In this document: one piece after another, positions 28,915 through 60,260 of the stretch
How the letters are laid out: every line of letters begins with the position of its first letter
How positions within the stretch are numbered: position 1 is the first letter of the stretch
Origin: an uncultured Bacteroidales bacterium
Lineage (GTDB): Bacteria; Bacteroidota; Bacteroidia; Bacteroidales; UBA932
Direction: 5' to 3'
Assembly: GCA_944322585.1 (NCBI GenBank)
Contig: CALUPB010000016.1
Location: 1-62,287, forward strand
DNA: 62,287 bases
Program-made: the position numbers and the translations under genes
The notes under the pieces: model-generated
What the model saw: the letters and a program-made list of their open reading frames with translations, nothing else
Told to the model about the DNA's origin: nothing
Databases searched by the model: none

Positions 28915-30534
28915 ATGATATATGTACATGTTCCATATTGCAGAAGTTTCTGCACCTATTGTGACTTCTATTCTGAACTGTCATGCGGAAACCGCAATGC
29001 CTTTGTAGGTGCGGCATGTGCCGAGATAGCTGCAAGGTCGGATGAGATAAGGTCTGGTATAGGGGTCGGATGGAAGGAGATCCGGGGCGACAGGGATGCT
29101 GTCGGGAACAATACATTGTATATCGGAGGCGGAACGCCTTCGGTTCTGTCTCTTGATGAACTGAAGCGGATTGTGTCTGCCTGCCGTGCCGCTGCATTTC
29201 CGGGAGAAAACAGGTCCGGCCGTTGCCGGAAGCCGGATACGGAATGGCTGGTGGACAATGGTGTAACCTGTATCGGCTCCGGACAGGATCCGGTGTCGGA
29301 CCCCGGACATGATGCCGGGATTGACGGGAACAGCCGCTTTGATGAATTTACCGTCGAGGTAAACCCTGATGACATAGTCCGGAAAGGCCCTTCCTATGTG
29401 GAGGGCCTGCTCCGTCTCGGGGTGGACAGGATAAGTATGGGCATCCAGTCATTGGATGACAGGGTACTCGGATGGATGAACCGCCGGCATGACGCCGCTG
29501 CCGCCCGGAAGGCATACAGAATACTGCGTGAAGCGGGAGCAGGGAATATAAGCATAGATCTGATATTCGGGTATGACATGAGATATATCCCGGGATTTGG
29601 CGGGACGGAAGTTCATGGATACAGGCATGCTTCAGGAACGGGTAATGTCAGGATGGACCGGCAGGATGCCGTGGAGCACTGGAGCAGGACTGTGGAGCAG
29701 GCCCTCGATATTTCCGGTGACGGTTCCCTTCCGCAGCATGTTTCCGCCTATCAGCTGTCGGTGGAGGATGGCAGCGTCCTGGCGCAGTCCGTTGCGGAAG
29801 GGAAGTATGCGGAACTTCCGGATGATGTCTGTGCAGAACAGTATTCCGTGCTTTGCAGGTTGTTGAAGGATGCAGGGTACCGTCATTACGAGATCTCGAA
29901 TTTTGCCTTGCCGGGATATGAAGCAAAGCACAATAGCGCTTACTGGCGTCATGTGCCTTATGTCGGTGTCGGTCCGGGGGCACACTCGTTGGTGTACCGG
30001 CCTTCATTTCGGACAGATGCAGGCCCGGTTCCGGATTTGTCTGGCAATCAGACAGCTGACCCTGTACAGATCCCCGGTTCGTCATACAGTCAGGCAGAAG
30101 GCCGGTCATACGGTTCGTCAGACAGTTTGCATACAGGCATGGAATGTCCGCCGCCGGGAGGGGAGGCGTCCGGAACGGATAGGGAGACATGCGGCCTTAT
30201 GCGCAGGTGGAATATTCCGGATGTCGCTGCCTACCTGCAAGCTGCCGCATCCGGAGACTGGGACGGCATCCGCGAGTTTGAATACCTGTCTCGGGAACAG
30301 TATGTCACGGAGGAGATAATGCTCGGGCTCCGGACTGACAGGGGAGTGCCGCGCAGGCTTCTGATGTCGGAATCTTCCAGAGAGCGGAATACGGAAAAAC
30401 TCCTCCGTACGGGTTCTCTTGTTCCCGTCGGAGGAGTTGTCCTGAAGCAGGCGGGTTCAGAAAAGGAATCCCGCCTGCGTATTCCTGAAGATCATTTCTT
30501 CGTTTCGGATGATATCATTTCCGACTTGCTTTGA
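28915..30534 (+). CDS. hemW: HemW-type radical SAM heme chaperone with four inserts
   Basis: A radical SAM protein of the HemW/HemN-like family. The cluster ligands are C9, C13 and C16 (CRSFCTYC, CX3CX2C). Family blocks follow: 'TLYIGGGTPS', 'FTVEVNPDD', 'GVDRISMGIQSLDD', 'NISIDLIFGY', 'QHVSAYQLSVEDGS' and 'HYEISNFALPGYEAKHN.AYW'. HemW inserts heme into respiratory enzymes; the CX3CX2C without a fourth cysteine fits HemW rather than coproporphyrinogen dehydrogenase. At 539 residues it is about 160 longer than usual. The excess sits in hydrophilic inserts at about 44-55, 96-140, 220-249 and 361-431, between conserved blocks, so the core is intact. Confidence 0.85.
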   Translation: MIYVHVPYCRSFCTYCDFYSELSCGNRNAFVGAACAEIAARSDEIRSGIGVGWKEIRGDRDAVGNNTLYIGGGTPSVLSLDELKRIVSACRAAAFPGENRSGRCRKPDTEWLVDNGVTCIGSGQDPVSDPGHDAGIDGNSRFDEFTVEVNPDDIVRKGPSYVEGLLRLGVDRISMGIQSLDDRVLGWMNRRHDAAAARKAYRILREAGAGNISIDLIFGYDMRYIPGFGGTEVHGYRHASGTGNVRMDRQDAVEHWSRTVEQALDISGDGSLPQHVSAYQLSVEDGSVLAQSVAEGKYAELPDDVCAEQYSVLCRLLKDAGYRHYEISNFALPGYEAKHNSAYWRHVPYVGVGPGAHSLVYRPSFRTDAGPVPDLSGNQTADPVQIPGSSYSQAEGRSYGSSDSLHTGMECPPPGGEASGTDRETCGLMRRWNIPDVAAYLQAAASGDWDGIREFEYLSREQYVTEEIMLGLRTDRGVPRRLLMSESSRERNTEKLLRTGSLVPVGGVVLKQAGSEKESRLRIPEDHFFVSDDIISDLL

Positions 30535-30560
30535 GGTTGAGTCGACCTTAATAACTGTTT

Positions 30561-33695
<3,135 letters not shown>

Positions 33696-33728
33696 TTATT
33701 AATTGATATGATGTTGGTTTGTATGATA

Positions 33729-34853
33729 TCATGGTGTCGGATCCGTCCAATGTATCCGGATGCCCTGCCGTTCCATGCCCCTGAACCATGTCATCTGCCG
33801 TTTGGCGAACTGGTGTATGGCTATGGCGAGCCGTTCCCGCATCTGTGCATAGTCCAGTTCTCCCGTGACATACATGGTGACATATTTGTATTCGAGACCA
33901 TAGTAAATCAGGTCTTCCGGTGTCAGCCCGCTGTCAAGCAGCCGCCTTATCTCGTCCGCCATCCCTTCCTCAAGTCTTGCATCGAGCCGCCGGTCGATCC
34001 TTGCGTTCCTTTCGTCGCGGCTGACCAATGTACCTATATAATATGTATGCTTCGGAAGATAGTCTGTCCTCGGAGCAGGATGGTCTTTCTCATAAATGGC
34101 GATTTCCAAAGCGCGGATAAGCCTTTTGCGTGTGTCGAAATCCGTAGTGTTGTGCAGTGGCTTCAGGCTTGCGAGTCTTTTAATGAGAGTCTCCGTGTCT
34201 TCCTTTTCCAGTTCAGCCCTGAGTTCCGGGTCTGCCGGTACCTCCGGGAGGGAATAGCCGCAAGTGGCTGCTTCGATATACAGTCCAGAGCCTCCGCAGA
34301 GGATCGGAATGCCTCCTCTGTGTCTGATGTCGTCATATGCCTTTTCGAAATCGCGCTGGTATTCGTATATATTGTATTTCGACCCCGGAGGGACAATGTC
34401 TATGAGATGGTACGGGATTTCTCCGTATTCTTCCATGTCCTTTCCGGTTCCGATGTCCATCCCTTTGTAGACCTGTCTGGAATCCGCGGAAATGATTTCC
34501 GCTCCTGCGCATCCGGCTCCATGCATCCCGTTCTTTGGACTGCGGTGTTCCGGAATGATTCCCCCATTTGTCCGATCGCTTCCGGAACCGTTCTCCTTCT
34601 GTGAGCGGCCTGTTTCGGAAACACTTCCGTCCGGGCAGCGGATGAAAGGCGATTCTACGGCTTTGTCAAGAAGCCTGTTGAATTCCCTTGCCAGCCGGAC
34701 TGCATATCTCGTCTTGCCTGATGCCGTAGGGCCGAGCACACAGAAAAGATCAGTCTTACCCTCAAGATAAGACTGAAGAAGGACAGAGGCGTCTATTGTT
34801 TCCGCTTCCGGTAGCGGAGCCATGTTCCATTCTTTTTTATTCGGGTTTCCCAT
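33729..34853 (-). CDS. miaA: tRNA dimethylallyltransferase MiaA, with an internal insert
   Basis: MiaA adds a dimethylallyl group to A37 of tRNAs reading UNN codons. The P-loop 'VLGPTASGKTRYAV' is at about 37-50. 'AEIISADSRQVYKGMDIGTGK' at about 117-138, 'YHLIDIVPP', 'GGSGLYIEAATCGY' and a C-terminal 'FAKRQMTWFRG' follow, so the enzyme core is complete. The protein is 374 residues against about 300-310 usually. A hydrophilic insert (about 67-117, rich in Gly, Ser, Asn, Arg) lies between the P-loop helix and the DSRQ strand. A -7 box TAAATTTG lies at 34886-34879 upstream. Confidence 0.93.
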   Translation of the reverse strand: MGNPNKKEWNMAPLPEAETIDASVLLQSYLEGKTDLFCVLGPTASGKTRYAVRLAREFNRLLDKAVESPFIRCPDGSVSETGRSQKENGSGSDRTNGGIIPEHRSPKNGMHGAGCAGAEIISADSRQVYKGMDIGTGKDMEEYGEIPYHLIDIVPPGSKYNIYEYQRDFEKAYDDIRHRGGIPILCGGSGLYIEAATCGYSLPEVPADPELRAELEKEDTETLIKRLASLKPLHNTTDFDTRKRLIRALEIAIYEKDHPAPRTDYLPKHTYYIGTLVSRDERNARIDRRLDARLEEGMADEIRRLLDSGLTPEDLIYYGLEYKYVTMYVTGELDYAQMRERLAIAIHQFAKRQMTWFRGMERQGIRIHWTDPTP

Positions 34854-35068
34854 CAGGCATTGGATAAATGCTCGGCTACAAATTTAAGACAATAAATCGG
34901 TATATAATATAACGGATAAATTAATAAGTATAACAGATTTGTCAAATTCAGCCGGTCTGCGGTGAAATTGACGTTATAGATAGCTTCTGCCGTTCTGGAA
35001 ATTCTCCCGGAAAATCACCGGTAAAATTTATATTGATAAAAATTTAGGCAGCATCCGGGAAATTTTAT

Positions 35069-35076
35069 TACCTTTG
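35069..35076 (+). promoter_or_regulatory. -7 box of the tRNA-Ser gene
   Basis: TACCTTTG matches the Bacteroidetes -7 consensus TAnnTTTG and lies 48 bases ahead of the mature tRNA 5' end. Confidence 0.5.
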
Positions 35077-35123
35077 CAGTCTGTTCCGGAAATTCTTTTT
35101 CATGGAGCGGGACTCATGTTACT

Positions 35124-35211
35124 GGAGAGATGCTCGAGTGGCTTAAGAGGCACGCCTGGAAAGCGTGTATACGACAAAATCGTATCTCGGGTTCGAATCC
35201 CGATCTCTCCG
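35124..35211 (+). tRNA. tRNA-Ser (anticodon GGA)
   Basis: An 88-base class II tRNA. The acceptor stem GGAGAGA (35124-35130) pairs with TCTCTCC (35204-35210), with discriminator G at 35211. The anticodon loop in 'GCCTGGAAAGC' gives GGA for serine. A long variable arm (TACGACAAAATCGTA) and the T loop GGTTCGAATCC are present. CCA is not encoded. The 246 bases that follow, to 35457, hold no gene I can support. Confidence 0.96.
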
Positions 35212-35457
35212 CAAGGCGACAAACTGAAAATTACAAAAGTTGGCAGACGATTTGAATGCCTGTCCCCGCCTTTTTTCGTGGGCTCACGGAAATGCTCTCT
35301 CGGGTCACATACCCTCGTCGCCCCCTCCCACTTGAGTACAGACAATAACAGCAGCCCCAGCAGGTTCTGCGGGAGCTGCCACATGCAAATTTGACTTCAG
35401 GATCCTCGTTCGGCAATCTCCCTGTCTTCGCAGAGCATATCGCTGTCCGAGTGCCGG

Positions 35458-35946
35458 TTACAGCGTTTCCTCCTCGTCATCAGTGTCGGGAATGAGTCCC
35501 TCAGGGATGGCGTCGATACGGGAATATACCCTGACTTCGGACGGATCGTCCGTCGCTGTCCAGATCATGCTGTCTGATGTCAGTCCCGATACGGCATACC
35601 AGTGTGACCACTGCTTGAAATCCATATAGTCGTAGTAGCCGCCTATGGTCTTTTTCTCATGATCGATATCGAACTCTCCGGTCATGACAGACGCCACCGA
35701 AGATGTGGTCTCGATATTGGAGCATGAAGTGAATTCGCCTTGCCGAGTAAGTTCGATATAGGCATAGGTCCCCTCGGCGAGAGGTTCCCCGTTCCATTCG
35801 ACAAGCTCCCATGTCCCGGCTACATTGTAATATGTCAGGGACAGGTATTCTTCCGTCTCTGTCCCGGACTTGTCGCATGATACGGCAAAAGACACCGCCC
35901 AGGCCGTTGCCAGTACATTCAAAATGTTTCTAAAAATATGTTTCAT
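35458..35946 (-). CDS. Small lipocalin-like lipoprotein
   Basis: The start at 35946 gives a 162-residue lipoprotein with a lipobox at C24; the longer frame from 36015 has no signal peptide and overlaps the upstream gene. The mature part 'VAGTWELVEWNGEPL' followed by about eight beta-strand segments resembles the lipocalin-like small lipoproteins of Bacteroidetes. The end is acidic ('DTDDEEETL'). It is the last gene of the SusC/SusD protease cluster, starting one base after the DUF1573 stop codon. Function and ligand are unknown. Confidence 0.7.
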   Translation of the reverse strand: MKHIFRNILNVLATAWAVSFAVSCDKSGTETEEYLSLTYYNVAGTWELVEWNGEPLAEGTYAYIELTRQGEFTSCSNIETTSSVASVMTGEFDIDHEKKTIGGYYDYMDFKQWSHWYAVSGLTSDSMIWTATDDPSEVRVYSRIDAIPEGLIPDTDDEEETL

Positions 35947-35947
35947 C

Positions 35948-36844
35948 TTATCTTCTGATATTTGTTTCATCAATAATTTCCACCTGTATCGTCCTCTGCG
36001 AAGGCGGCAGGTCAAGACCGGTCAGAATGACGGGGACAGCCTTCAGCATCCTCATCGGTACGGCTCCGGGGTCATAGGAGACTACAATGTCCGCCTCCCC
36101 GCCGGGCGGTATCGTCTCGGGTTCGCACCTTAACGTCAGGAACGGCGGCAGCAATCCTGCATCGGCACCTATCGTCAGGGGAGTGTCTCCGGCATTCATG
36201 CACATTATCCTTTCGACACCTTTCTTCTGCCCGTCGAACTTTACGGAGGTACGGCGCAGACAAAGATTCCCCATCCGGTACCGGTACAGCCATACAGGTA
36301 CATCCGCAGCCTCTACATATCCTTTCAGCGACAGGACCGCCGCCGGTCTGGAACCGGAGAGATCGGTGTAGACGAATATCCGTCTCTCGAACTTCCCCGG
36401 ATGGCCCTTGGGATGATACGTTATCGTCAGTGACCCGCTTTTTCCGGGCGCTACCGGCTGCCTGTCGAACGAAGGGACGGCGCATCCGCATGTCGTGGAG
36501 ACTTTCAGCACTGTTACCGGTCTGTCTCCCGTGTTTGTCCATGTATATCCGTATTCCGGCGGGACAGCCGTCTCGTCAATGGTTCCGGTATCTATCACTT
36601 TTGTCCTGAAATGCATCGAAGCGCCTGCTTCCGAGACTTCAGGACAGTACAGGCTGTCTATAGTCTTCTCCCTCCTGTCCAGCTCCGTACTGTCGGCGGC
36701 GTTCCGCTCCGTCAAGGACAGGCTGTCAGCCAAAGTCCTTGACGGGATGACGGAAGCAGGCCGTGAGACAGACCCTCCTGCCATCATCCACAGCGGACAT
36801 GACCAGATGGCAGCAATGGCCGATATGACATATCCCGGTCTCAT
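35948..36844 (-). CDS. DUF1573 exported protein, two repeats
   Basis: A 298-residue protein with an N-terminal signal-like segment and a DUF1573 (ASPM/SPD-2/Hydin-like Ig) domain, seen as 'GYTWTNTGDRPVTVLKVSTTCGCAVPSFDRQPVAPG' type sequence (about 98-133) with the diagnostic CGC. A second similar unit at about 195-290 ('NAGDTPLTIGADAGLLPPF' and 'IPPGGEADIVVSYDPG') lacks the CGC. Such proteins are common in the Bacteroidetes periplasm; the role is unknown. It lies 15 bases after the protease gene in the same operon. Confidence 0.8.
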   Translation of the reverse strand: MRPGYVISAIAAIWSCPLWMMAGGSVSRPASVIPSRTLADSLSLTERNAADSTELDRREKTIDSLYCPEVSEAGASMHFRTKVIDTGTIDETAVPPEYGYTWTNTGDRPVTVLKVSTTCGCAVPSFDRQPVAPGKSGSLTITYHPKGHPGKFERRIFVYTDLSGSRPAAVLSLKGYVEAADVPVWLYRYRMGNLCLRRTSVKFDGQKKGVERIMCMNAGDTPLTIGADAGLLPPFLTLRCEPETIPPGGEADIVVSYDPGAVPMRMLKAVPVILTGLDLPPSQRTIQVEIIDETNIRR

Positions 36845-36859
36845 GTTCCTTCTGAAGGC

Positions 36860-38983
36860 CTACAGCCAGCCCTCGCTTGTGCGGACCGTGATTGCAAAAG
36901 TCTGCTGCACACCGCCGGAGGTTGTGATGGTGGCTGTCGTAGAGCCGCTCTTGAGGCCGAAGAAAGTCAGGTTTCCGGTCACACCGCTTACGGAAGCGGA
37001 AGCACTGGATGCAAGCCCGTCAGCACTTACAGTGGCTACAGACGGGTCATCAACAGTCACGGAGAAACTCTCCCCTTCAAGGAAAGCAGAAGGGGCTACG
37101 GTAACCGAGGCTACGGTAGCCGAGGCTCCTGCATTGATATACACATTGGGGAATTCCATGGCTACGCCCGCACCGTCACCGGCAATCTTGTTCAAGAATG
37201 CGAAGGCATTCACGACACCAGCCCCCATGTTGTTCCTGTATGAGGATAGACGCATAGTGCGTGCATGGATAAGAGGGTCGGCATCCACCTGCCATTTGTA
37301 GTAGAACTTGTCTCCTGACAGGATGTTATCCTTCAACGGGGTCGCGGACTCATACAGAAGATCCATTATCTCGTCTGCGGTGAAATGCTTGTGGAGTCTG
37401 GCTGCGTATGAAAGCCCGAGCGCCACCACTCCGGATACGTGAGGGCAGGCCATTGATGTCCCCTCCATGTAGCCGTAGCCTGACTCGCTTATGTGGGTAG
37501 GTACGGTGGAAAGTATGCATCCTACGGCGCCCCTGTCTCCGTCAGTCTCCTTGAAGTCGAAATAATAGTCCTGGTCCCCTCCTGGAGCGGATATCTTGGT
37601 GTATGTCCCGTAGTTGGTGTATGTGGCTGGAGTAAAGTCACCAGCTACGGCAGCCACTGAGACACAACCGTCATACGCACCGGGGAAACCGGCCATCGGG
37701 GCATACTCATTCCCTGATGCAAAGACCGGAATACCTCCCTTCACCGGCCCGTTCTCGGAACCTGCGTTATGGATGAAATAGTCGAGGGCCGCCTTTTCAA
37801 GAGGGCTGGCATATTCCCATTCGTCCTCATCACGGTAACCAGTGCCGTACTCATACGGGTTTGCAGCGCCTGAAGTATAGCCGAAACTGCACTGGAGGAC
37901 TACGGCCCCGTTGTCGGCTGCATACTTGATGGCCCGGGAGAGACTCACAGTATTCGATGAAAGGTTGCCTGAAAAAATCTGGCATGACATGAGCCTTACT
38001 CCGGTCGTCTCCAGGGCATCGGCTTCGGGACCGGCAATGGAGGATATGCCATCATTGCCGTTGGTGGCCGCTATGATCCCCCCGCAATGAGAGCCGTGCC
38101 CCGTATCGCTGACGGCATCCCAGGAGACATCGCCGCGGCTGTTGATGAAATCATAGCCATGGTAGTCACCGGCATACCCGTTGCCATCATTGTCGTCATG
38201 TGAATACTCCGTCTCATCTTCGTTCACCCAGAGACTGTTCACAAGATCAGGATGCTTGAGGTAGAGCCCCTCGTCGAGCACGGCGACGATTATGGAAGGG
38301 TCACCCTTGCACAGTCCACGCGCTTTCTCCCATGAGATGTCATTGCCGGCGACAAACTTGTCCCGCGCCTCCTTGTCAAAAGGATAGCCGTCCACAGACG
38401 ACACCTCGGAATTGAGAGTGTATTTCGAAGTGTTCTCGGTGATGTTCTTCAGGTTCCACTGCCATTCGAGAAGATCCCCCTCCCCGCTGATACGGGTAGC
38501 CGGAGACGGACGGAAAGGTATCACCTTGCCGTCATACGCCTTCCTTATCGTCAGCACCGGGGATGCGGACTGCACCTCTCCCAGGGCGGAAAGTTTCTCC
38601 ACCACATCCTCCACATCTTCATCCTCGCTGAAATGCACGACATACCAGAGATGCAGTCCGGCCGTACGGGCCCTGTCTTCCGTAGCCCTGTCCACCGGAA
38701 ATACCCGTTCGAGACGGTAACCTCCGATAACATCGAGAAGTTCATCAACAGTATTCACCCCTGAACGTGTGGCGGGCGCCTTGGCGAGTCCGGCTTCCTC
38801 GAGCAGATCCGCCAGCGATTCGTCGAACTTCAGGACCACCTCTCCGGGAAGATATGCCGGAACTGTCTCTTCCGGTGCAGATGTCACCGGAGATTCGGCT
38901 GCCGGGGACACCTTCGCACAGGAAACAGCCGCAACCGTGGCGGCGGATACCAGAAATATATTCAATAATCTCATTTTCATCAT
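36860..38983 (-). CDS. Subtilisin-family (S8) surface lipoprotein protease
   Basis: A 707-residue lipoprotein (lipobox at C22) with an N-terminal inhibitor-like pro-domain (about 40-145, 'LPGEVVLKFDESL'). An S8 catalytic domain runs from about 190 to 600, and a C-terminal Ig-like domain (about 610-707) contains 'SFSVTVDDPSVATVSADGLA', of the bacterial Big_2 type. The triad is D237 ('AVLDEGLYLKHPDL'), H296 ('GHGSHCGG') and S510 ('GTSMACPHVSG'). All three are present, so it should be active. Its position behind SusC/SusD suggests it cuts proteins at the cell surface to make peptides for import. Confidence 0.9.
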   Translation of the reverse strand: MMKMRLLNIFLVSAATVAAVSCAKVSPAAESPVTSAPEETVPAYLPGEVVLKFDESLADLLEEAGLAKAPATRSGVNTVDELLDVIGGYRLERVFPVDRATEDRARTAGLHLWYVVHFSEDEDVEDVVEKLSALGEVQSASPVLTIRKAYDGKVIPFRPSPATRISGEGDLLEWQWNLKNITENTSKYTLNSEVSSVDGYPFDKEARDKFVAGNDISWEKARGLCKGDPSIIVAVLDEGLYLKHPDLVNSLWVNEDETEYSHDDNDGNGYAGDYHGYDFINSRGDVSWDAVSDTGHGSHCGGIIAATNGNDGISSIAGPEADALETTGVRLMSCQIFSGNLSSNTVSLSRAIKYAADNGAVVLQCSFGYTSGAANPYEYGTGYRDEDEWEYASPLEKAALDYFIHNAGSENGPVKGGIPVFASGNEYAPMAGFPGAYDGCVSVAAVAGDFTPATYTNYGTYTKISAPGGDQDYYFDFKETDGDRGAVGCILSTVPTHISESGYGYMEGTSMACPHVSGVVALGLSYAARLHKHFTADEIMDLLYESATPLKDNILSGDKFYYKWQVDADPLIHARTMRLSSYRNNMGAGVVNAFAFLNKIAGDGAGVAMEFPNVYINAGASATVASVTVAPSAFLEGESFSVTVDDPSVATVSADGLASSASASVSGVTGNLTFFGLKSGSTTATITTSGGVQQTFAITVRTSEGWL

Positions 38984-39007
38984 TTGTTTCTCCTATCAGT
39001 CGGGACG

Positions 39008-40909: not shown

Positions 40910-40928
40910 AACAATTCAATATATTTTT

Positions 40929-46156: not shown

Positions 46157-46200
46157 GACTTTCGGTTTTAACGATAAAACTATAATTAAGTGAGATAGGT

Positions 46201-47124: not shown

Positions 47125-47138
47125 TGCGCTTGCTGTGT

Positions 47139-48713: not shown

Positions 48714-48727
48714 CGCATTTCCTCCTG

Positions 48728-51691: not shown

Positions 51692-51714
51692 AAACCTGAC
51701 TTAATTTCGCGGCG

Positions 51715-51722
51715 CAAAAGTA
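51715..51722 (-). promoter_or_regulatory. -7 box of the second SusC operon
   Basis: On the minus strand TACTTTTG matches TAnnTTTG and lies 24 bases upstream of the SusC start codon. No good -33 box was found. The leader would be very short. Confidence 0.45.
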
Positions 51723-52052
51723 AACAATATTTTTATATAATTACGGACATTAATAAATATTTTTCTGCTTTGAATTAGAGAGTTATATTAGTCGGCTTCA
51801 GTTTTTGCGGGAATTTGATTACTGTTTGTAAGTAAAGAGCGTGATACGGTTGATAATCATAATGAAATTCCGGATTATGCTTAATGTCTTTAAATGCCGT
51901 ATTTATGCGGAAAAGCCGTATGTCACAAAGTGTCACGCGGTTTGATATAATCGCAGGTGCGGCCGGCAGGTATGGTGACAGTTACGCCGCAATTGACCGG
52001 ACCGTAATCAGTTCCCGGTCACAAGATATATTCGCATGATTTTTTCGCTGTA
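51723..52052. other. Gene-free stretch upstream of the second SusC operon
   Basis: These 330 bases hold no supported gene. The part near SusC is very A/T-rich. Around 51918-51938 there is a short direct repeat TGTCAC...TGTCAC next to a CCGTAT repeat, which could bind a regulator. No hairpin terminator for either flanking gene was clear. Confidence 0.4.
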
Positions 52053-52502
52053 TCAGTACCGTTCCATTTCCCGGCGGAGATCCTTTTCCTTTATGGACTG
52101 GCGCTTGTCGTATTCTTTCTTTCCGCGGGCAAGGGCGATAAGCAGCTTGGCATACCCGTTGTCGGCTATGTAAAGCTTTACGGCAATGATAGTGAGTCCC
52201 TTTTCCTTTACCGCGCGGCTGAGTTTGCCGAGTTCCTTCTTCGTGAGCAGCAGTTTGCGGTCCCTCCGAGGATCATGTTTTCCCCATGTCCCCCACCAGT
52301 AGTCGGCTACATGCATGTTCTTGACATAGAGCTCACCGTTGTTGAAATAGCAGAAACTGTCCGCAAGAGAGGCTTTGCCCGCCCTTATGGACTTTATTTC
52401 CGTCCCCGTGAGGACGATGCCGGCCTGATAGGTTTCGAGAAATTCGTAGTCGAACGATGCCCGGCGGTTCTTGATTTCAACTTTGCTTTTTGCTTTCGGC
52501 AT
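52053..52502 (-). CDS. smpB: SsrA-binding protein SmpB
   Basis: A 149-residue protein, the normal SmpB length, starting '[21 protein letters not shown]'; the in-frame extension to 52583 is not part of the family. It binds tmRNA and brings it to stalled ribosomes for trans-translation. Signature segments are '[23 protein letters not shown]', '[12 protein letters not shown]', '[11 protein letters not shown]' and the basic C-terminal tail '[23 protein letters not shown]' region. No tmRNA gene was seen nearby. A -7 box TATATTTG at 52536-52529 lies 26 bases ahead of the start. Confidence 0.96.
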
Positions 52503-52711
52503 GGTATCCTGTCTTTGTCTGCCGCCTGCAAATATACGCAAACTAACCCACATACGGATAAATTTTGGAGGAACAATGCACACTCTTGGAAATTAAAGGT
52601 GACGTGCGGTTATATCCAATGTCCGTCATTGGGGCATATCTGCCATTTTTGAGGAGTCAAGGAAACAAATCGCTACCTATCCGTTGCCTTTCCAGGAAAA
52701 TTCGGGTTAAA

Positions 52712-52768
52712 TTGCAATGTATCTGCGTAGGTAGTCAATTAATGACTACATTTGCAATGTCATTGCAA
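52712..52768 (+). promoter_or_regulatory. Paired palindromes and -7 box upstream of the AbiEi gene
   Basis: Two perfect inverted repeats are packed just ahead of the antitoxin frame: GTAGTCA-ATTAA-TGACTAC (52731-52749) and TTGCAATG-T-CATTGCAA (52752-52768). A direct copy of TTGCAATG is at 52712-52719. TACATTTG at 52747-52754 fits the -7 consensus and lies between the palindromes, 21 bases before the ATG. AbiEi antitoxins are known to repress their own promoter through inverted repeats, so this is a likely autoregulatory operator. Confidence 0.6.
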
Positions 52769-52775
52769 TTTGATT

Positions 52776-53480
52776 ATGGAAAAACGAACTGCCTTGCATC
52801 GTTTAGTTGCCAAATCAAGGATTATTTCTCCTTGGCGTAATTTTTATGTCATTATGCCTGTGGAGTATTTGTTGAAAGGAATAATTCCACCTGTTTTCTA
52901 TATGGATCAACTGATGTCCTATCTCGGGAAAAAATATTATGTCTCTCTTTTAAATGCGGCCTCTTTTTATGGCGCATCGCATCAAAGAGTCCAGACTTTT
53001 TCAGTCATGGTGGAGCAGCCGAGCTTAAGGAATACTTCCAAGAACGGGACTCCCATTCTGTTCTTTTCAAAAAAAGAGATCCGGATGGAATTTATAAAGA
53101 AACACAAGACACAGACAGGTTACATCAACGTATCTTCTCCTGAACTGACAGCCATTGACTTGATAGAAAACGAAAAGAACGTAGGCGGTCTGAACCGCGT
53201 CTGTACTGTTTTGAATGAATTGTCCGATGCCATGAATCTGGATAGTTTGGATGATTCCTTTTTCAACATATCGACTACGCCTGTCTTTCAACGGTTGGGA
53301 CTTATCCTGGAACACAGCCTTGGACGGGAGGAACTTGCGGAAACATTATATTCAAAAATAGAGGCTGCCGAATTAAAATTAAGAAAGGTCCCGTTTAAAA
53401 TAAACAAACCGACAGATGGTTGTGAAGTTGATAAAAGATGGAAAGTGATTGTTAACCAAGAAATAGAGATAGACGAATGA
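52776..53480 (+). CDS. AbiEi-family antitoxin, N-terminally short
   Basis: A 234-residue AbiEi-type protein, from ATG 52776. The TTG at 52752 lies inside the palindrome and an in-frame TGA is at 52743. Family sequence is clear: 'RIISPWRNFYVIMPVEYLLKG', 'FYMDQLMSYLGKKYYVSLLNAASFYGASHQR' region, and 'ELTAIDLIENEKNVGGLNRV'. Most relatives begin with a full winged-helix of about 50 more residues; here only its last helix ('RTALHRLVAKS') remains. DNA binding may therefore be impaired, unless this is a naturally short form. The region is more A/T-rich than its neighbours, pointing to transfer. The gene overlaps the toxin start by 4 bases (ATGA). Confidence 0.8.
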   Translation: MEKRTALHRLVAKSRIISPWRNFYVIMPVEYLLKGIIPPVFYMDQLMSYLGKKYYVSLLNAASFYGASHQRVQTFSVMVEQPSLRNTSKNGTPILFFSKKEIRMEFIKKHKTQTGYINVSSPELTAIDLIENEKNVGGLNRVCTVLNELSDAMNLDSLDDSFFNISTTPVFQRLGLILEHSLGREELAETLYSKIEAAELKLRKVPFKINKPTDGCEVDKRWKVIVNQEIEIDE

Positions 53481-53943
53481 TACCGGAATTTGCAATCAGA
53501 GAATGGAGCGAACACGTTCCGTGGACAGAGTCCGAGCAGATTGAACAGGATCTGCTGATATGCAGAGCCTTGACCGAGATATATAAGGATGAATATCTCG
53601 CGTCCCACCTGGCTTTCCGTGGAGGGACTGCATTACACAAGTTGTTTCTCTCGCCCCAACCCAGGTACAGCGAAGATATTGACTTGGTACAGGTTAACGC
53701 TGAGCCTATCAAAGAAACCTATGACCGTATAAGAGATGCCCTCGCTTTTCTCGGAGAGCCGAAAGTGAAACAGAAGAAACATAACAATACTTTGATTTCA
53801 GGCTGGAATCGGAAGTCATACCTGTAGTTCCGATTCATCTTAAAGTGGAAATCAACTGTAAAGAACATTTCAGCGTACTGCCTATGCAGCACATACCCTT
53901 TTCAGACCTGATGAAGAATTTGATGCACAAATCGTCCACATAA
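53477..53943 (+). pseudogene. AbiEii-family nucleotidyltransferase toxin, frameshifted and truncated
   Basis: The first frame (53477-53827) gives 116 residues with the nucleotidyltransferase motif 'AFRGGTALHKLFLSPQPRYSEDIDLVQV', family-typical for AbiEii toxins of about 300 residues. Near 53794-53800 the reading frame breaks. Restoring one base resumes family-like sequence in the next frame ('RLESEVIPVVPIHLKVEINCKEHFSVLPMQHIPF' region) until a stop at 53941-53943. The rest of the protein is missing. The toxin is therefore probably dead. After 53943 another frame reads 'RPDEEFDAQIVHINIGFI', perhaps from a deletion joint. Confidence 0.8.
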
Positions 53944-54012
53944 ATATCGGCTTTATATGAATGAACGTCACAAATCATAACACCGTTTTGCCCTTGAGCC
54001 GTGAAAAAGATA

Positions 54013-54119
54013 CCGCCCTCGCGATTCACATCGCAAGGGCGGCGCAATTCTAACCTAAAACTTAACCTATGAAAAAACTATTCGATTTCAAAATATTGCA
54101 AATCCTGTGCCACAGGTAG
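54013..54119 (+). other. GC-rich hairpin followed by a 16-codon reading frame
   Basis: CCGCCCT-c-GCGA at 54013-54024 pairs with TCGC-a-AGGGCGG at 54031-54042, a strong stem with a 6-base loop and no T-tract. It is followed by an A/T-rich leader with repeated AACCTAAAACTTAACCT-like sequence, and ATG at 54069 opening a frame MKKLFDFKILQILCHR that stops at 54119. It could be the expression leader of a lost mobile gene or a small-peptide element. It sits between the broken toxin gene and the cyclophilin gene, which is on the other strand. Confidence 0.35.
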
Positions 54120-54174
54120 CCTGCAGGGACAGTCAAAGCATGTTTTTCTCTATTTTCGGGAAATTTTGCATCAA

Positions 54175-54900
54175 TTACTGTTCTTCGGCAGGGGCTGCCT
54201 CCTGTGCGGACAGCATTTCCGGGTCAGGATATATCCTGATTATCTTCACACTGTTGAGAGGACAGTCCCTGCTGTCCGTGGCAACAGCGGCAATCCTGTC
54301 GATTACGTCGAGCCCTTCGACGGTCTCGCCGAATACGGTGTATTCCCCGTCAAGCTGGGCACAGTTCATTTCGTCCTGTACGATGTAGAACTGCGAGCCT
54401 GAAGATGCCTTTTTCGGGTTGGCGGCATCTCCGCGCCTGGCTGCTGCAAGAGCTCCTTTCCTGTGAGTATATTCAGGGACGAACTCGGCAGGTATTGTGT
54501 AGTCCGGGCCTCCGGTTCCGTATTGGGATTTCTTTGACGGATCCTTTGTGAGCGGGTCTCCTCCCTGAATCATGAATCCGTTGATTACACGGTGGAAAAG
54601 TAACCCGTCGTAGAAATGTTCATGTACGAGCTTGACGAAATTGTCCCTGTGTTTAGGGGTCTTGCTGTACAGTTTTACCTTTATTGTCCCGAGACTGGTC
54701 TCTATGTCGAAGACCGGCTCTTCAGGAAGGTCTGCAGGATTGAAATTCATGGTATCTTTCTTTACGGTGTTTTCTGTAACGACAGCCGCGTCTGACTTGG
54801 AGTCCGTGGCTTTCTTCGCTTCTTCGTTGCCGGAGCAGTTGCATGATACGGTTGCTGCTACCAGACCGGCAAGGCAGAGTGTTCTGATGAAATTTTTCAT
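54175..54900 (-). CDS. Cyclophilin-type peptidyl-prolyl isomerase lipoprotein
   Basis: A 241-residue lipoprotein (lipobox at C20, 'TVSCNCSG') with a polar linker to about residue 60 and a cyclophilin domain to about 225. Family blocks are 'TSLGTIKVKLYSKTPKHRDNFVKLVHE', 'YDGLLFHRVINGFMIQGGDP' with the catalytic arginine in FHRV, 'SSGSQFYIVQ' and 'LDGEYTVFGETVEGLDVIDRI'. It catalyses cis-trans isomerisation of proline bonds in envelope proteins. It lies 106 bases downstream of the hydrolase gene on the same strand. Confidence 0.92.
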   Translation of the reverse strand: MKNFIRTLCLAGLVAATVSCNCSGNEEAKKATDSKSDAAVVTENTVKKDTMNFNPADLPEEPVFDIETSLGTIKVKLYSKTPKHRDNFVKLVHEHFYDGLLFHRVINGFMIQGGDPLTKDPSKKSQYGTGGPDYTIPAEFVPEYTHRKGALAAARRGDAANPKKASSGSQFYIVQDEMNCAQLDGEYTVFGETVEGLDVIDRIAAVATDSRDCPLNSVKIIRIYPDPEMLSAQEAAPAEEQ

Positions 54901-55006
54901 ATTTAGTGTTTTACATGTTTCCGAATTCTGGGACTTTCATCTTTTGGCGGTAGAGAAGGCATCAACTGTCATGCCGAAATCTCCTGCCGGTGTCATGTCT
55001 TTATGC

Positions 55007-55858
55007 CTAAAGAGTGGACAACCAGTCAAGAACGGATTTCTGCCAGTCGTCGTAGTAACGGAATTTAGGATTTATCCCCCAACCGTGACCCCCTGAAGGG
55101 TATATATGCAGGCTGGCCTTGACCCCGTTCTCTTTGAGTCTCTGATAAAAAATGGCGCTGTTGACCGCCGGGACCACCTTGTCGTCATCGCTGTGGAAAA
55201 GCAATGTCGGAGGAGTCGTACTGTCGACATGTTTTTCGAGGGAGAATGCCATTGCTTTAGGCGAGTTGGCATCCTTGTCGCCCATCAGCTGGACGAAAGT
55301 GCCTTTATGGCGTATGTCAAGGTCGGCGGATATTACCGGATAGAACAGAATCATGAATGCCGGCTTGTTTTCGGACAGCACTCCCACGCTTCCGGCGAGG
55401 TAGCCTCCTGCAGAGGTTCCGGAGACCCCTATTTTCTCCGGGTCCACTCCGAATTCATCGGCCCTGGCTTTCATGACACGGAGGGCTTCATCCGCATCGT
55501 TGCGCGGTATTTCGCTGTGGCCGTTCGGGAGACGGTATTTCACCACAGCGGCGGTAATGCCATGTTCCGCAAACCATTTGGCTGTCTTGTGCCCGTTCGG
55601 AAGAGAAAGGTTGGAGTAGCCTCCGCCGGGAAAGAATACGATGCCCTGCCCGGTGGCGTTTTCTCCTGCCTTGTATACCCACATTTCGGCAGTGGTGGTG
55701 TTGCTGACCGCTCCTCCTTTCGAAACCTTTTCTTCTCCGGAGAGACCGTTGGACGTGGGAGCCGTCGAGTTGTCCCACAGACGGATATGTACAGGTTCCT
55801 GAGCCTGTACGGCTGCTGCCATTCCTGCTGCAGCAATCAGAATCATGAGCTTCTTCAT
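55007..55858 (-). CDS. Exported alpha/beta-hydrolase (acetyl-esterase-like)
   Basis: A 283-residue hydrolase with a signal peptide ending near 'AAVQAQEP' (residue 19). The oxyanion motif is 'GIVFFPGGGYSNLS', the nucleophile S149 lies in 'GVSGTSAGGYLAG', an acidic cluster D224-D226 in 'HSDDDKVVP' supplies the aspartate, and H258 lies in 'SGGHGWG'. This set fits BD-FAE/xylan-acetylesterase-like enzymes that remove acetyl or similar groups from sugars. It starts 2 bases after the ptsI stop codon, so it belongs to the PTS operon. It may deacylate the sugar or polyol before uptake, which is inference. Confidence 0.88.
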   Translation of the reverse strand: MKKLMILIAAAGMAAAVQAQEPVHIRLWDNSTAPTSNGLSGEEKVSKGGAVSNTTTAEMWVYKAGENATGQGIVFFPGGGYSNLSLPNGHKTAKWFAEHGITAAVVKYRLPNGHSEIPRNDADEALRVMKARADEFGVDPEKIGVSGTSAGGYLAGSVGVLSENKPAFMILFYPVISADLDIRHKGTFVQLMGDKDANSPKAMAFSLEKHVDSTTPPTLLFHSDDDKVVPAVNSAIFYQRLKENGVKASLHIYPSGGHGWGINPKFRYYDDWQKSVLDWLSTL

Positions 55859-55860
55859 TG

Positions 55861-57729
55861 TTATTGTCCTGTTGATTTATATTGTCTTATCCTGGCTTTT
55901 ACGTCTCCTGTGGCAGAGGCGTTGACGCTGAAAATCTCCAGACCGCTGTCAAGCAGAAATCCGATAGCTTCAGGATCCGATGCCATTTCTCCGCACATCG
56001 CGACATCGATTCCGGCCTTGTGTCCTTCTTCTATGACATGGCTGATACACCGTAACACGGCAGTGTCGAGAGAGTTGTACAATGATGCGACTTTCGGGTT
56101 GCCTCTGTCGGCAGCCATTATATACTGTGTAAGGTCATTTGTCCCGATACTGAAGAAATTGCATTCTGCAGCAAGCATATCCGCTATCATGACTGCTGCC
56201 GGTGTCTCTATCATCACCCCGGTCTTTATATCCGGGTCGGATGCCAACCCTTCGGCTGTCAGGGATTTGCGGCAGAATTCGAGTTCCTTTTTCGCCTGAC
56301 GCAATTCTTCCAGAGTCGTTATCATCGGGAACATGATGCGTACATTCCCGTATGCCGAGGCCCGCAATATGGCCCGTAACTGGGCTCTGAACATTTCTCG
56401 CCTGTCTAAGGAAATACGTATGGCCCTCCATCCGAGGAACGGATTGTCTTCATTCCCTATATCAAGGTATGGCAGTTTTTTGTCGCCTCCTATGTCGAGT
56501 GTCCGGATTGTCAGCGGTCTGTCTCCGCAGGCTTCGGCGGCAGCGCGATAGGCGGAATACTGGGTCTCCTCATCAGGGAAATCGCTGCTTTCCATGTACA
56601 GGAACTCACTCCGGAGCAGCCCGATTCCGTCAGCTCCGGCCTCTATTGCAGTACGTACATCATTTACATTGCCGGCATTGCCTTCTACGTAAATCCGTTT
56701 CCCGTCTAAAGTGACTGCCGGTTCATGTGAAGAACGTGCCGCGGCTGAACGTGTTTCGGCATAGTGTGCAATGAGTTCTCTATAGGACCGGAGAACAGTC
56801 CCGTCAGGGTTGACAATCACTTTGGCTCCCGGTCCGTCTATTATTATACAGTCTCCGTCATGTATTCTCGACATGCAGTCCCGGACACCGGTCATGGCGG
56901 CTATGCCTTTGTTCCTTGCGATGATACAGACATGGCTTGTGATGCTGCCTTTCTCGGTGACAAGTCCTGCCAGTCTGTTGAAGTCCATCCTGGCGGTGTC
57001 GGAAGGGGCCAGCTCTTCGGCAACTATTATAGTGCCTTCCGGCAACTCTCTTGAAATCCCGGTTCCCGTTCCTGTCTTAGTCCCGGTTTCAGTTCCGGTC
57101 TCCTTTCCGGTCCCAGTTCCGGTCCCAGTTCCGGTTTCAGTTCCGGTTTCAGTTCCGGTCTCAGTTCCGGTCTCCTTTCCGATCCCGGTCCCTGTTTCGG
57201 GTGTATCCGGTGTCCCGGTTCTGCCGCAGGCACCGTCATCGGCAGGTCCGGCTTTCCCGGTGGTGCCTACATCCGTAGTCGATATCGCTTCGGACCGGCT
57301 CAGACCATTATTCTCTTCGGAACAGACAGCCGGCAGGGCATTTATTATCTGTCTGCATACATCGCGGACATCATCAGTCCTGCTGCGCAGATATTCATCG
57401 TCTATCATGGAAAGCATGGTGCAGATCGAGTCGCAGGCTTCTTCTACGGCCTTGTCTGCCGGAAGCCCTTCGGCTGTAATCTTTGTTTCCACTTCTTCCG
57501 ACAGCATCGGGTCATCCGCCATTTCTGAATGTGCAGCGAATATCTCCTCTTGCTCTGCAAGGTCTGAAAGTCGTGATTTCACCTGCTTGAGAGCCAGATG
57601 AAACCTTTTGCATTCTTCTTTGCTGCTGCCTGACGGAATATATCGGGATATTGCCATGGACGGCCTGTACAGAAATGCTGTCCCGCAGGCAATCCCGTCT
57701 GTCTTTATGCCGGTGTCTATTGTCAGCAT
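55861..57729 (-). CDS. ptsI: PTS Enzyme I with a tandem-repeat linker insert
   Basis: A 622-residue phosphoenolpyruvate-protein phosphotransferase, against about 575 in the family. The HPr-binding domain (about 20-150) is followed by an insert (about 150-230). The phosphohistidine domain carries H266 in 'GSITSHVCIIARNKGI', and the PEP-binding barrel contains 'GIGLLRSEFLYM', 'RTLDIGGDKKLPY', 'FFSIGTNDLTQY' and cysteine in 'VAMCGEMA'. E. coli has the active histidine at 189, so about 77 residues have been added before it. The insert contains about ten units of Gly-Thr-Glu-Thr type. Being in the linker between domains, it need not prevent activity. It starts one base after ptsH. Confidence 0.92.
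   Translation of the reverse strand: MLTIDTGIKTDGIACGTAFLYRPSMAISRYIPSGSSKEECKRFHLALKQVKSRLSDLAEQEEIFAAHSEMADDPMLSEEVETKITAEGLPADKAVEEACDSICTMLSMIDDEYLRSRTDDVRDVCRQIINALPAVCSEENNGLSRSEAISTTDVGTTGKAGPADDGACGRTGTPDTPETGTGIGKETGTETGTETGTETGTGTGTGTGKETGTETGTKTGTGTGISRELPEGTIIVAEELAPSDTARMDFNRLAGLVTEKGSITSHVCIIARNKGIAAMTGVRDCMSRIHDGDCIIIDGPGAKVIVNPDGTVLRSYRELIAHYAETRSAAARSSHEPAVTLDGKRIYVEGNAGNVNDVRTAIEAGADGIGLLRSEFLYMESSDFPDEETQYSAYRAAAEACGDRPLTIRTLDIGGDKKLPYLDIGNEDNPFLGWRAIRISLDRREMFRAQLRAILRASAYGNVRIMFPMITTLEELRQAKKELEFCRKSLTAEGLASDPDIKTGVMIETPAAVMIADMLAAECNFFSIGTNDLTQYIMAADRGNPKVASLYNSLDTAVLRCISHVIEEGHKAGIDVAMCGEMASDPEAIGFLLDSGLEIFSVNASATGDVKARIRQYKSTGQ
57060..57195. repeat. 12-bp tandem repeats inside ptsI
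   Basis: About ten imperfect copies of a 12-bp unit (CAGTTCCGGTCT-like on the plus strand) encode the repeating Thr-Glu-Thr-Gly/Gly-Thr sequence of the Enzyme I insert on the minus strand. Because the unit is a multiple of three, copy-number changes keep the frame. Confidence 0.85.
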
Positions 57730-57730
57730 T

Positions 57731-57994
57731 TCAGTCCTTTATGTTTCTGATGAATCCGGCCACTGCCGATGCGATGGCCTGTTCGTCTCCTCCTTCGACC
57801 CTTATCTCGGCCTCGGTTCCGCATTTCAGCCCGAGGGACAGGATTGACAGCATGCTCGCTGCATTCACTTCCTTGGCCTCTGTGCATATCGTTATCTTTG
57901 CCGGTGCGAAACTCTTGACGAGTTTTACGAGTTCTCCAGCCGGTCTTGCATGCATTCCCGAAGGAGCGGTTACGGTTACTTTTTCTGTGGTCAT
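57731..57994 (-). CDS. ptsH: HPr phosphocarrier protein
   Basis: An 87-residue HPr, normal size. The active histidine is H15 in 'SGMHARPAGELV'. A serine, S47 in 'NAASMLSILSLGLK', occupies the place of the regulatory Ser46 of Gram-positive HPr; whether an HPr kinase exists is unknown from this window. HPr passes phosphate from Enzyme I (next gene, 1-base gap) to the EIIA domain of the permease (previous gene, 4-base gap). The operon therefore encodes a whole phosphorelay. Confidence 0.95.
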   Translation of the reverse strand: MTTEKVTVTAPSGMHARPAGELVKLVKSFAPAKITICTEAKEVNAASMLSILSLGLKCGTEAEIRVEGGDEQAIASAVAGFIRNIKD

Positions 57995-57998
57995 AAGA

Positions 57999-60260
57999 TT
58001 ATTCCTGTTTTAAAGCATTGTATATCTCGCTGATGTCAGAAGTGGATGACAGTCTGTCCAGCAGTTCTTCGTCCTCCAGAACGCCTGCTAGGTTGGCAAG
58101 GATGGACAGGTGATCGTCTCCGACCCCTGCAATACCTATGACGAGCCGGGCCTTTTCCTCTCCGAAGTCCACTCCGTCGGGATATTGGAGTACGACTATG
58201 CCGGAGTGCAGCACTTCGGCCTTGGCTTCGGATGTGCCGTGCGGGATCGCAATGCCCATACCCATGTAGGTGGTGCTCAGTTTTTCCCGTTCAACCATGG
58301 CTTCTATGTAGTCCGGTTTGACATACCCTCCTTCTGCAAGCATCTTTCCTGCACGCCTTATTGCATCTTCCTTGCTTTCGGGACGGAGTCCGATTGCAAT
58401 GTTCTGTTCGGTCAGCAGTCTGTCGGGCTTGCCTGTCTGCGGATGTTCATCCCCTTGCCCGGCAGTGTCGGTTTCTCCATCGGTCGGTCCGGACTCTCTA
58501 CGGATTTCATGCCTGTCGCTGCCGGTTTCCGTTACAGCAGTTCCGGTACCGGATTCTTCTGCGCTGTCTGCGGAATTATCGGCATTATCATGTCGCGTAT
58601 TCTGCAATCTGATGAAAAGGTCATCCAGGTGTTTGTCAGACAGGAAGTTGTCTATGACTACCACTTCGCTGCCTCTGTAAAATCCGATATTGTTCCCTGT
58701 CCCGGCCGCAGATTCATCTTTGTCTCCGGCGAGCCTGCGGGCTATAATGGCCTGGCAGACAATCACATCGGCATTTTCAGGAATCCTGTCGGCGGCACTG
58801 TTGGTCACTTCCGTGCCTATGCCGGCTTTCTGAAGCCTCTGTCTGAATCTCGTGGCTCCCAAAGCACTCGACCCCATTCCTGCATCGCAGACAAATACTA
58901 TTTTATGCACTGGCCTGTTTGCTGCATTTCCATTCACAGAGGTATTTCCCTGTCGGCATGAAGTCTGTGTCCCTTGAGAAGCGTTTCCCTGTCTGTCAGT
59001 GTCCTGTTCCTTCTGAGAAGCATTTCCCTGTCTGTCGGCGCCCTGTCCTCCCGAAGTATTTTCTGTCAGTCCGGTGACAGTTGCCCTTATCCCCGGAGTT
59101 TTTCCTTTCGGTCCGGTGGCGATTGTCCGTATTCCCGTTTTTCCCCCTGTCAGACCGGTGACAGTTCCCCTTATTCCCGAAGTTTTCCTTCCAGCTGATG
59201 ATATGTCTGTGTTTTCTCCGTTCTCTCCGTCAGATGGGTTTTCATCAGGAGATGTCTTTTTTAGTCTGATGAATGGCATGGCGACGGCAAATGAGACGGC
59301 GGCAGATATCAGGACTCCGGCAAGAATGGTCAGCGTCATCCCTTTAGGAGCCATGGCAAGCACTGATATTATGCTTCCGGGCGATGCCGGAGCCACTAAT
59401 CCCGCTCCTGTCAGAGAGTAGAACAGAAGAGCGGAGGCCGAGCCTGCAATGGTCGACAATATGAGTACGGGACGTGCAAGGATGTAAGGGAAATAAATTT
59501 CGTGGATTCCTCCGAAGAACTGTATTATTATCGCTCCAGGAGCGGACTGTTTCTCATTGCCACGTCCGAATATCCAGTAGGCCAGCAGCATTCCGACTCC
59601 CGGGCCCGGATTGGTCTCGATAAGGAACATTATGGAAGAACCGAATTCCCTTGCCTGTTCGATGCCTATGGGGGAGAAAATGCCGTGATTTACCGCATTG
59701 TTGAGGAAAAGGACTTTTGCGGGCTCCACAAACAGTGATACAAGAGGGAGCAGTCCGTGCCGTATTACCACGTCCGCGCCTGCACTGATGGCAAGGGTAA
59801 GCCATGTGACGATGTTCCCGATTACAAGATATCCGAGAATGGCCAGCAGCATCCCGATGATTCCGATGGAGAAATTGTTCACGAGCATCTCAAAGCCAGC
59901 CTTGACTTTACCCTCCACCAAATGGTCGAACTTTTTGATGCACCATCCGGCAAGAGGCCCCATTATCATGGCTCCGATGAACATCGGTATTTCGCTTCCT
60001 GCGATTACTCCCACTGTGGCGATGGCACCTATTACCCCTCCTCTGTCTCCGCCTGCGTTCCGGCCGCCCGTGTAACCTATAAGCAGAGGCAGAAGATATG
60101 TCAGCATTGCCGGGACAAGCTTCGCAAGCCTTTCATCGGGCCACCAACCTGAGGGGATGAAAAGAGCGGTTATGAATCCCCAGGCTATGAAAGCCCCGAT
60201 ATTGGGCATGACCATCGCGCTCAAGGCGCGTCCGAATTTCTGGATTCCCTGACGCATCAT
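57999..60260 (-). CDS. mtlA: Mannitol-family PTS permease EIICBA with long linkers
   Basis: A 753-residue fused permease (E. coli MtlA has 637). EIIC (about 1-335) has eight or more membrane segments with 'GAFIAWGFITALFIP', 'NNAVNHGIFSPIG' and 'FFGGIHEIYFPYIL'. EIIB (about 450-550) has the phosphocysteine C458 in 'FVCDAGMGSSALGAT'. EIIA (about 615-753) has the phosphohistidine H674 in 'IAIPHGTSEAK'. Two added hydrophilic linkers lie at about 338-447 and about 552-612. It should import and phosphorylate mannitol or a similar hexitol. No mannitol-1-phosphate dehydrogenase gene is in the window. Its ATG overlaps the fecR stop by one base (TAATG), so translation is coupled. Confidence 0.88.
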   Translation of the reverse strand: MMRQGIQKFGRALSAMVMPNIGAFIAWGFITALFIPSGWWPDERLAKLVPAMLTYLLPLLIGYTGGRNAGGDRGGVIGAIATVGVIAGSEIPMFIGAMIMGPLAGWCIKKFDHLVEGKVKAGFEMLVNNFSIGIIGMLLAILGYLVIGNIVTWLTLAISAGADVVIRHGLLPLVSLFVEPAKVLFLNNAVNHGIFSPIGIEQAREFGSSIMFLIETNPGPGVGMLLAYWIFGRGNEKQSAPGAIIIQFFGGIHEIYFPYILARPVLILSTIAGSASALLFYSLTGAGLVAPASPGSIISVLAMAPKGMTLTILAGVLISAAVSFAVAMPFIRLKKTSPDENPSDGENGENTDISSAGRKTSGIRGTVTGLTGGKTGIRTIATGPKGKTPGIRATVTGLTENTSGGQGADRQGNASQKEQDTDRQGNASQGTQTSCRQGNTSVNGNAANRPVHKIVFVCDAGMGSSALGATRFRQRLQKAGIGTEVTNSAADRIPENADVIVCQAIIARRLAGDKDESAAGTGNNIGFYRGSEVVVIDNFLSDKHLDDLFIRLQNTRHDNADNSADSAEESGTGTAVTETGSDRHEIRRESGPTDGETDTAGQGDEHPQTGKPDRLLTEQNIAIGLRPESKEDAIRRAGKMLAEGGYVKPDYIEAMVEREKLSTTYMGMGIAIPHGTSEAKAEVLHSGIVVLQYPDGVDFGEEKARLVIGIAGVGDDHLSILANLAGVLEDEELLDRLSSTSDISEIYNALKQE
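58937..59205. repeat. 39-bp and ~45-bp tandem repeats in the mtlA linker
   Basis: Three 39-bp units (about 58938-58976, 58977-59015, 59016-59054) encode repeats ending in DRQGNAS-like residues. Adjacent to them, about three ~45-bp units (about 59060-59200) encode GIRxTVTGLT-like repeats. All keep the reading frame and lie between the EIIC and EIIB domains. Confidence 0.8.

Follow-up and report, generated by a model that had tools for sequence, protein, structure and literature searches.

How do conserved housekeeping enzymes come to carry long stretches of extra protein sequence between their conserved parts? The question is raised by a 62,287-nucleotide contig of an uncultured Bacteroidales bacterium, analyzed here as one entire contig (G000:C16, hereafter the window), on which the genes for HemW, MiaA, Enzyme I of the phosphotransferase system (PTS) and a PTS mannitol permease all contain in-frame inserts. 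The source genome comprises 2.87 Mb in 33 contigs, is 93.5% complete and probably belongs to Candidatus Cryptobacteroides, a genus so large that 400 of its genomes could be drawn for the MiaA comparison described below. A preliminary description of the window had proposed a genome-wide process behind these inserts, either slippage expansion or a small coding-compatible palindromic repeat. We confirmed that the inserts are real and that the phenomenon reaches past the window: they are in frame, lie in loops and domain linkers, and are missing from the relatives compared. With a probability of roughly 0.6, we propose that tolerant loops gain in-frame DNA repeatedly and by more than one route, and that the added DNA then drifts and is filtered by selection.

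HemW shows the pattern most fully. Its 539 residues compare with 361 positions in the NCBIfam model, which it matches below the model's cut-off, and with a median of 391 residues among its relatives, and it has three main inserts. These relatives are the best 80 of 572 loci and include Candidatus Cryptobacteroides intestinavium, merdavium, avicola, faecihippi and others; length was measured at 76 of the 80, the motif search having failed at the four that were dropped, and reached at least 450 residues in six and at least 539 in two. Within the third insert, residues 388-407 match the insert itself at an offset of 36 bp. The HemW loops of other species also hold inserts, unrelated in sequence to those of the window. 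In an AlphaFold2 model built from a 6-sequence alignment (mean predicted local distance difference test score, pLDDT, 66.8; predicted template modeling score, pTM, 0.71), pLDDT fell below 50 at residues 99-139, 226-245 and 363-425, and also, away from the three main inserts, at residues 14-25, 52-63 and 507-515.

The other enzymes named in the preliminary description mostly bear it out. The extra residues of MiaA, put there at about 55, number 52 and are missing from the copy of G100, which was the closest congener in the first search (its HemW is 74% identical in the best segment); no insert is present either in the MiaA genes closest to that of the window by core identity (83%). In Enzyme I, about 87 residues rather than about 77 separate the N-terminal domain (PF05524) from the mobile domain (PF00391), and they are encoded by a 12-bp minisatellite specifying TGTE/TGTK repeats. 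The PTS permease carries about 108 and 64 residues between its EIIC, IIB and IIA domains, against estimates of about 110 and 60; the first of these inserts includes a 42-bp tandem repeat at 59049-59186, and the second showed no significant repeat in the self-similarity test. The claim found no such support for the U32 protein (701 residues). The G100 copy, with 692 residues, is nearly as long and aligns over 657 residues at 72% identity, and U32 was left out of the insert set because its extra length is mostly shared with that copy. Proteins described as free of inserts proved to be so: the profile matches of SmpB, DUF3109 and the extracytoplasmic function (ECF) sigma factor contain none, and HPr (87 residues, 57731-57994) has none as judged from length only. 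The statement that exported proteins lack the pattern was checked on LacZ, whose profile match likewise runs from end to end. At the end of the contig (62083-62287) lies a 73-bp tandem repeat of 2.8 copies; intergenic tandem arrays of 74 bp occur in the congener G016.

Table 1. Insert-bearing genes of the window, their inserts and the U32 gene (window positions)
Feature	Position	Strand	Basis or remark
hemW, 539 residues, three main inserts	28915..30534	+	NCBIfam hemN_rel (below cut-off), congener alignment
HemW insert 1, residues 91-137, CCGG-dense, low pLDDT	29185..29325	+	self-similarity p 0.055
HemW insert 2, residues 224-241; repetitive sequence in G120 at same loop	29584..29637	+	
HemW insert 3, residues 360-407; short dispersed palindromes in G081 at same loop	29992..30135	+	
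miaA, 374 residues	33729..34853	-	TIGR00174, PF01715
MiaA insert, residues 61-112; loop with palindromic repeats in several congeners	34518..34673	-	
ptsI (Enzyme I), 622 residues	55861..57729	-	TIGR01417
Enzyme I insert, residues 140-226, about 87 residues, hand-set bounds	57052..57312	-	
PTS mannitol IICBA permease, 753 residues	57999..60260	-	NF011663
PTS permease insert 1, residues 335-442, about 108 residues, hand-set bounds	58935..59258	-	EIIC/IIB linker
PTS permease insert 2, residues 546-609, 64 residues, hand-set bounds	58434..58625	-	IIB/IIA linker
U32/TrhP-like protein, 701 residues	20825..22930	-	extra length mostly common to G100

Beyond the window, we sampled 400 kb of further stretches of the same genome, giving 462 kb in all, or about 16% of the genome. 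The comparison was made with samples from the congeners G081 and G016 (400 kb each) and G100 (396 kb). Open reading frames (ORFs) were called mechanically, from an ATG start and with at least 100 residues, and inserts of at least 12 residues were listed from reciprocal best hits of at least 50% identity to the three congeners; the Enzyme I insert and the two PTS permease inserts were added to this list. It holds 38 inserts, which lie in 24 proteins and total 1507 residues. With the threshold raised to 15 residues, inserts were found in 6 of 32 orthologs here versus 1 of 32 in G100, in 10 of 28 versus 3 of 28 in G081, and in 5 of 25 versus none of 25 in G016. Among the congeners themselves, the corresponding counts were 3/16 in G100 versus 1/16 in G081, 1/8 in G100 versus 0/8 in G016, and 1/9 each in G081 and G016. 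A genome-wide process is thus supported within the sampled part of the genome. In translational bypassing elements, an insert is free to shift the frame or contain stops. Inserts were detected here inside open frames, so frame-broken ones could have escaped detection; a search of 78 conserved loci found no frame change, which is a weak control because only one of them had more than one aligned piece.

Carriers include RsmA/KsgA (153 residues), ArgB (two inserts), RNase HII (50 residues), DnaG, MetG, UvrA, a SpoIID-domain protein, an AmpG-like transporter (below the family cut-off) and a second MiaA, whose gene (L045:16010-17008) has an 85-residue insert of its own with 45-bp repeats. Outside the 38-insert set, a MurB gene (L044:230-1804) encodes 525 residues against a model of 343 positions, and its extra segments are dense in CCGG. 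Thr, Gly, Gln, His and Ser are over-represented in the listed inserts and Trp, Phe, Tyr and Leu under-represented, and T at the second codon position drops from 28% to 14%. In the KsgA alignment, fourteen congeners, out of 17 full-length ones taken from 29 loci, are 69-77% identical to the copy of this genome aside from its 153-residue insert, which contains 39-bp repeats; at the site of this insert the fourteen have at most a short stretch. The AlphaFold2 model of this KsgA (15 sequences, pTM 0.63) has pLDDT below 50 at residues 34-183 and mostly above 80 elsewhere. Low model confidence therefore coincides with the inserts in both proteins modeled, HemW and KsgA, whose cores were mostly modeled with good confidence.

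Where did this DNA come from? Tandem duplication is supported for part of it. Twenty-eight inserts reach 20 residues or more, and self-similarity beyond that of codon shuffles (p≤0.05) was detected in 11 of them, compared with 5 of 81 control segments. The offset was divisible by 3 in 10 of the 11; the proposal of slippage or tandem expansion is supported for these and finds no support in the remaining 17. Tandem Repeats Finder reported 32 arrays in the sample of this genome versus 2 in that of G100, one of them in an ORF. Twenty-one of the 32 lie inside ORFs, with periods divisible by 3 in 19, and 11 lie outside, where this is so in 4. Frame-keeping tandem units, as in coding minisatellites, make up inserts in Enzyme I, PTS permease insert 1, KsgA and the second MiaA. 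Two observations concern arrays outside genes. An intergenic 12-bp minisatellite at L041:11764-11845, whose unit is nearly that of the Enzyme I insert, lies between genes that appear from their translations to be argC and argD, and several overlapping arrays of 20-59 bp lie outside the selected ORFs at L050:2438-3187.

The second idea, a coding-compatible palindromic repeat, found no support in this genome. After low-complexity filtering, no 14-mer family was dispersed to four or more places in the 462 kb, and only 1 of 30 inserts had inverted repeats at p≤0.05, as expected by chance. Complementarity between the flanks of insert ends was marginally higher for matched than for mismatched ends (permutation p 0.027, n=34), and direct target duplications gave no signal (p 0.41). 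A search of 4.4 kb of Enzyme I/PTS DNA against the whole genome returned no other match better than E 0.037; since the argC-argD array was not listed, despite matching the Enzyme I unit at E 2e-12 in local BLAST, that search is blind to such repeats. Non-self matches at E<0.05 were obtained for 10 of the 38 inserts where about 2 would be expected, all of them weak save that of the Enzyme I unit. A self-BLAST of the sample gave eight stretches with at least four matches, whose sole overlap with a listed insert was 3 bp inside the KsgA tandem array.

The preliminary description had also asked whether the insert DNA shares motifs, and one excess was found. CCGG has a density of 22.3 per kb in inserts; core genes have 8.2 and codon-shuffled inserts about 10, which makes a 2.2-fold excess over the shuffled count. 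However, the core genes of each of the four genomes are likewise above their own shuffles, by 1.3 to 1.6 times, and we therefore treat the excess as an exaggerated host preference. Clusters of CCGG number 132 per Mb here versus 48 to 55 in the three congeners, and only 12 of the 62 overlap listed inserts.

In-frame palindromic repeats are, by contrast with this genome, clearly present in congeners, and partly at the very loops that are filled here. In G081, a longer palindromic element is dispersed, with 23 matches. An ORF covers the match at 14 of the 16 loci examined; as ORFs cover about 93% of the G081 sample, genes are neither clearly preferred nor avoided by the element. Family searches identified 9 of 10 host proteins (RsmE, PcrA/UvrD, RibF, AtpG, MtaB, TruB, TilS, RecR and AroK, with PcrA and AroK below cut-offs), and the tenth, L248, which has no family, is probably an antisense ORF. 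UvrA and DnaX are hosts as well, the DnaX copy being partial. On our reading, the element appears to be read in four frames without stop codons, and its core seems to carry hairpins. A search of eight of its loci in Rfam gave only two sub-threshold matches, both to hairpins of microRNA type.

The outer arms of this element behave differently from its core. In 14 copies they measure 19-31 bp, including a few bases shared next to the core, are 84-100% complementary, and differ from copy to copy. With the shared bases removed, matched arms scored a mean of 14.3 (lowest 6.6) versus 5.4 (highest 11.0) for swapped arms. Aligning RsmE, UvrA and DnaX gave no decision on which of the two arms is host sequence; in UvrA and AtpG it may be the downstream one, to judge from family motifs. 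Of 200 congener genomes, 84 contain a 23-base piece of the core, allowing one mismatch; it was not found in any of 247 genomes spread over the order, which include two of this genus (G000 and G229) and two more of its family. The piece is absent from the genome studied here and from G100, G060 and G120. In G120, a palindrome of about 28 bp forms part of a HemW insert, and this insert gave 39 matches over 18 contigs, many of them being both strands of one palindrome; this short element resembles, on our reading, the repetitive extragenic palindromes (REPs) that occur within genes.

Among congener MiaA genes, 15 of 29 carry long inserts at the loop that is filled in the window. The 29 are the best-scoring genes among the 384 of 400 genomes with a match, and the set is enriched for long genes because best-scoring matches were fetched. 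The DNA of 14 of these 15 inserts was read, and 11 contain palindromes with one of two other cores (in 8 and 3 genes, respectively; in L303 only in part). Of the others, L306 appears REP-like, L296 has 22-25 bp in common with two of the inserts, and L304 shares nothing. In ten inserts tested, matched arms scored 15.8 (lowest 12.2) and swapped arms 5.0 (highest 8.4). Across L247-L261 in G081 and L291-L303 in the congener MiaA loops, the outer stems differ per copy yet stay complementary. The UvrA loop holds a palindrome in G081 and an unrelated insert in this genome, and G081 has short palindromes in the loop of the third HemW insert, weaker copies of which occur elsewhere in its sample, at two places. 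From the differing host genes, orientations and frames, we infer that these palindromic elements are mobile.

Taken together, these data suggest the following mechanism. Exposed loops and domain linkers of housekeeping proteins would serve as permissive landing sites for extra DNA, and additions would persist only if they keep the frame, contain no stop codon and leave the product soluble; such a filter would make the surviving inserts hydrophilic and disordered. In this species, tandem duplication of short units would give rise to in-frame minisatellites, which would then drift until the repeat is unrecognizable, while in congeners some of the same loops would take up palindromic repeats. An insert lacking any visible repeat would be a decayed tandem or palindromic insertion, and inserts in general would be nearly neutral, with selection acting only as a filter. 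Several results weigh against this account. The majority of the inserts tested show no self-similarity, and G081 and G016 are themselves rich in arrays (22, of which 19 are in ORFs, and 16, of which 12 are in ORFs), so that array number distinguishes this genome from G100 only. A mismatch-repair mutator is ruled out, MutS and MutL both being present above cut-off, and no simple mutator is thus available as a cause. Plain slippage does not predict the CCGG richness of the insert DNA, and the weak non-self matches leave room for some shared sequence. Alignment shifts or true structure may lie behind part of the 38 inserts, three of which have bounds set by hand. Finally, congeners are not free of inserts: G009, G045, G046 and G085 are among those whose KsgA match is split at another site, which suggests further inserts there.

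The inserts of this genome could instead be mainly old palindromic elements decayed past recognition, with tandem duplication as a later layer. This is a doubtful but substantial alternative: the MiaA, UvrA and third HemW loops hold palindromic repeats in congeners, and matched insert ends show a slight excess of complementarity. Yet the inserts have inverted repeats only at chance level, the sample contains no dispersed family, and neither this genome nor three of the congeners contain the one core tested. The CCGG excess is also not shared by the 14 congener MiaA-loop inserts, and the loop that carries the long HemW copy of the G081 element is, in the window protein, only about a dozen residues longer. 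That the inserts were selected for a function, for example condensate formation or binding, rather than merely tolerated, appears improbable to us. Their recurrence at the same loops in several species and their strong composition bias would fit such a role, but sequence, length and presence vary between related species in the same gene, and filtering for solubility alone would give the composition. Misassembly, chimeric reads or lengths normal for the families might be suspected in an assembly of 33 contigs; this we regard as very improbable, given that frame is kept and stops are missing in inserts of many unrelated genes, that model and congener lengths are shorter, and that assemblies of other species carry inserts at the same loops.

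A wider and still tentative picture for the genus, which we hold less likely than not, is as follows. Candidatus Cryptobacteroides may harbor a mobile palindromic superfamily that enters coding loops, its outer stem being made anew at each site around a conserved multi-hairpin core, and its decay may feed disordered segments genus-wide, including those of the window. Inverted duplication of target DNA, or template-switch perfection, could for instance form a new stem at each site.

These observations can be set beside several known systems. Rickettsia palindromic elements (RPEs) are in-frame additions to assorted housekeeping genes, typically located in unstructured segments (PMC2996958). The inserts of this genome are like them in being in frame within conserved genes but, as far as sampled, are neither palindromic nor multi-copy. 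The G081 element comes closer, with dispersed palindromic copies in frame in several genes and in several frames; in the congener elements, however, the outer stem is specific to each copy while remaining complementary. RPE-like elements have also been reported in Wolbachia and Methanocaldococcus jannaschii. Intragenic REPs of the GTAG and CGTC families are described as short palindromes in genes of several species, many of them replication and repair genes, and CGTC repeats are reported in Bacteroidetes among other phyla (PMC3733652). REPs are mostly intergenic, in contrast to the ORF coverage of the G081 element at the loci examined. Coding minisatellites share with the tandem inserts their head-to-tail units and the prevalence of in-ORF periods that are multiples of 3, but the inserts here belong to conserved enzymes of the cytoplasm, KsgA, MiaA and Enzyme I among them. 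In the mitochondria of Nematomorpha, long inverted repeats occur in coding sequence, together with some hydrophilic insertions, and template switching has been proposed for them (PMC6649704); the congener elements differ in having a conserved dispersed core, which the portion of that account consulted does not mention. Our literature search found no description of such inserts in Cryptobacteroides, and none of an intragenic palindromic element with a locus-specific outer stem.

For annotation, the findings are a warning that core-enzyme lengths and domain boundaries in this genus can mislead. Arms that are complementary yet specific to each locus raise the question of how short palindromes arise or move. 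More broadly, the presence of palindromic repeat DNA in some of the same loops of sister species suggests how non-coding DNA can become protein. In a gut lineage with hundreds of sequenced species, this passage may be followed in conserved enzymes, through stages that run from a palindrome or tandem repeat to an unrecognizable loop.

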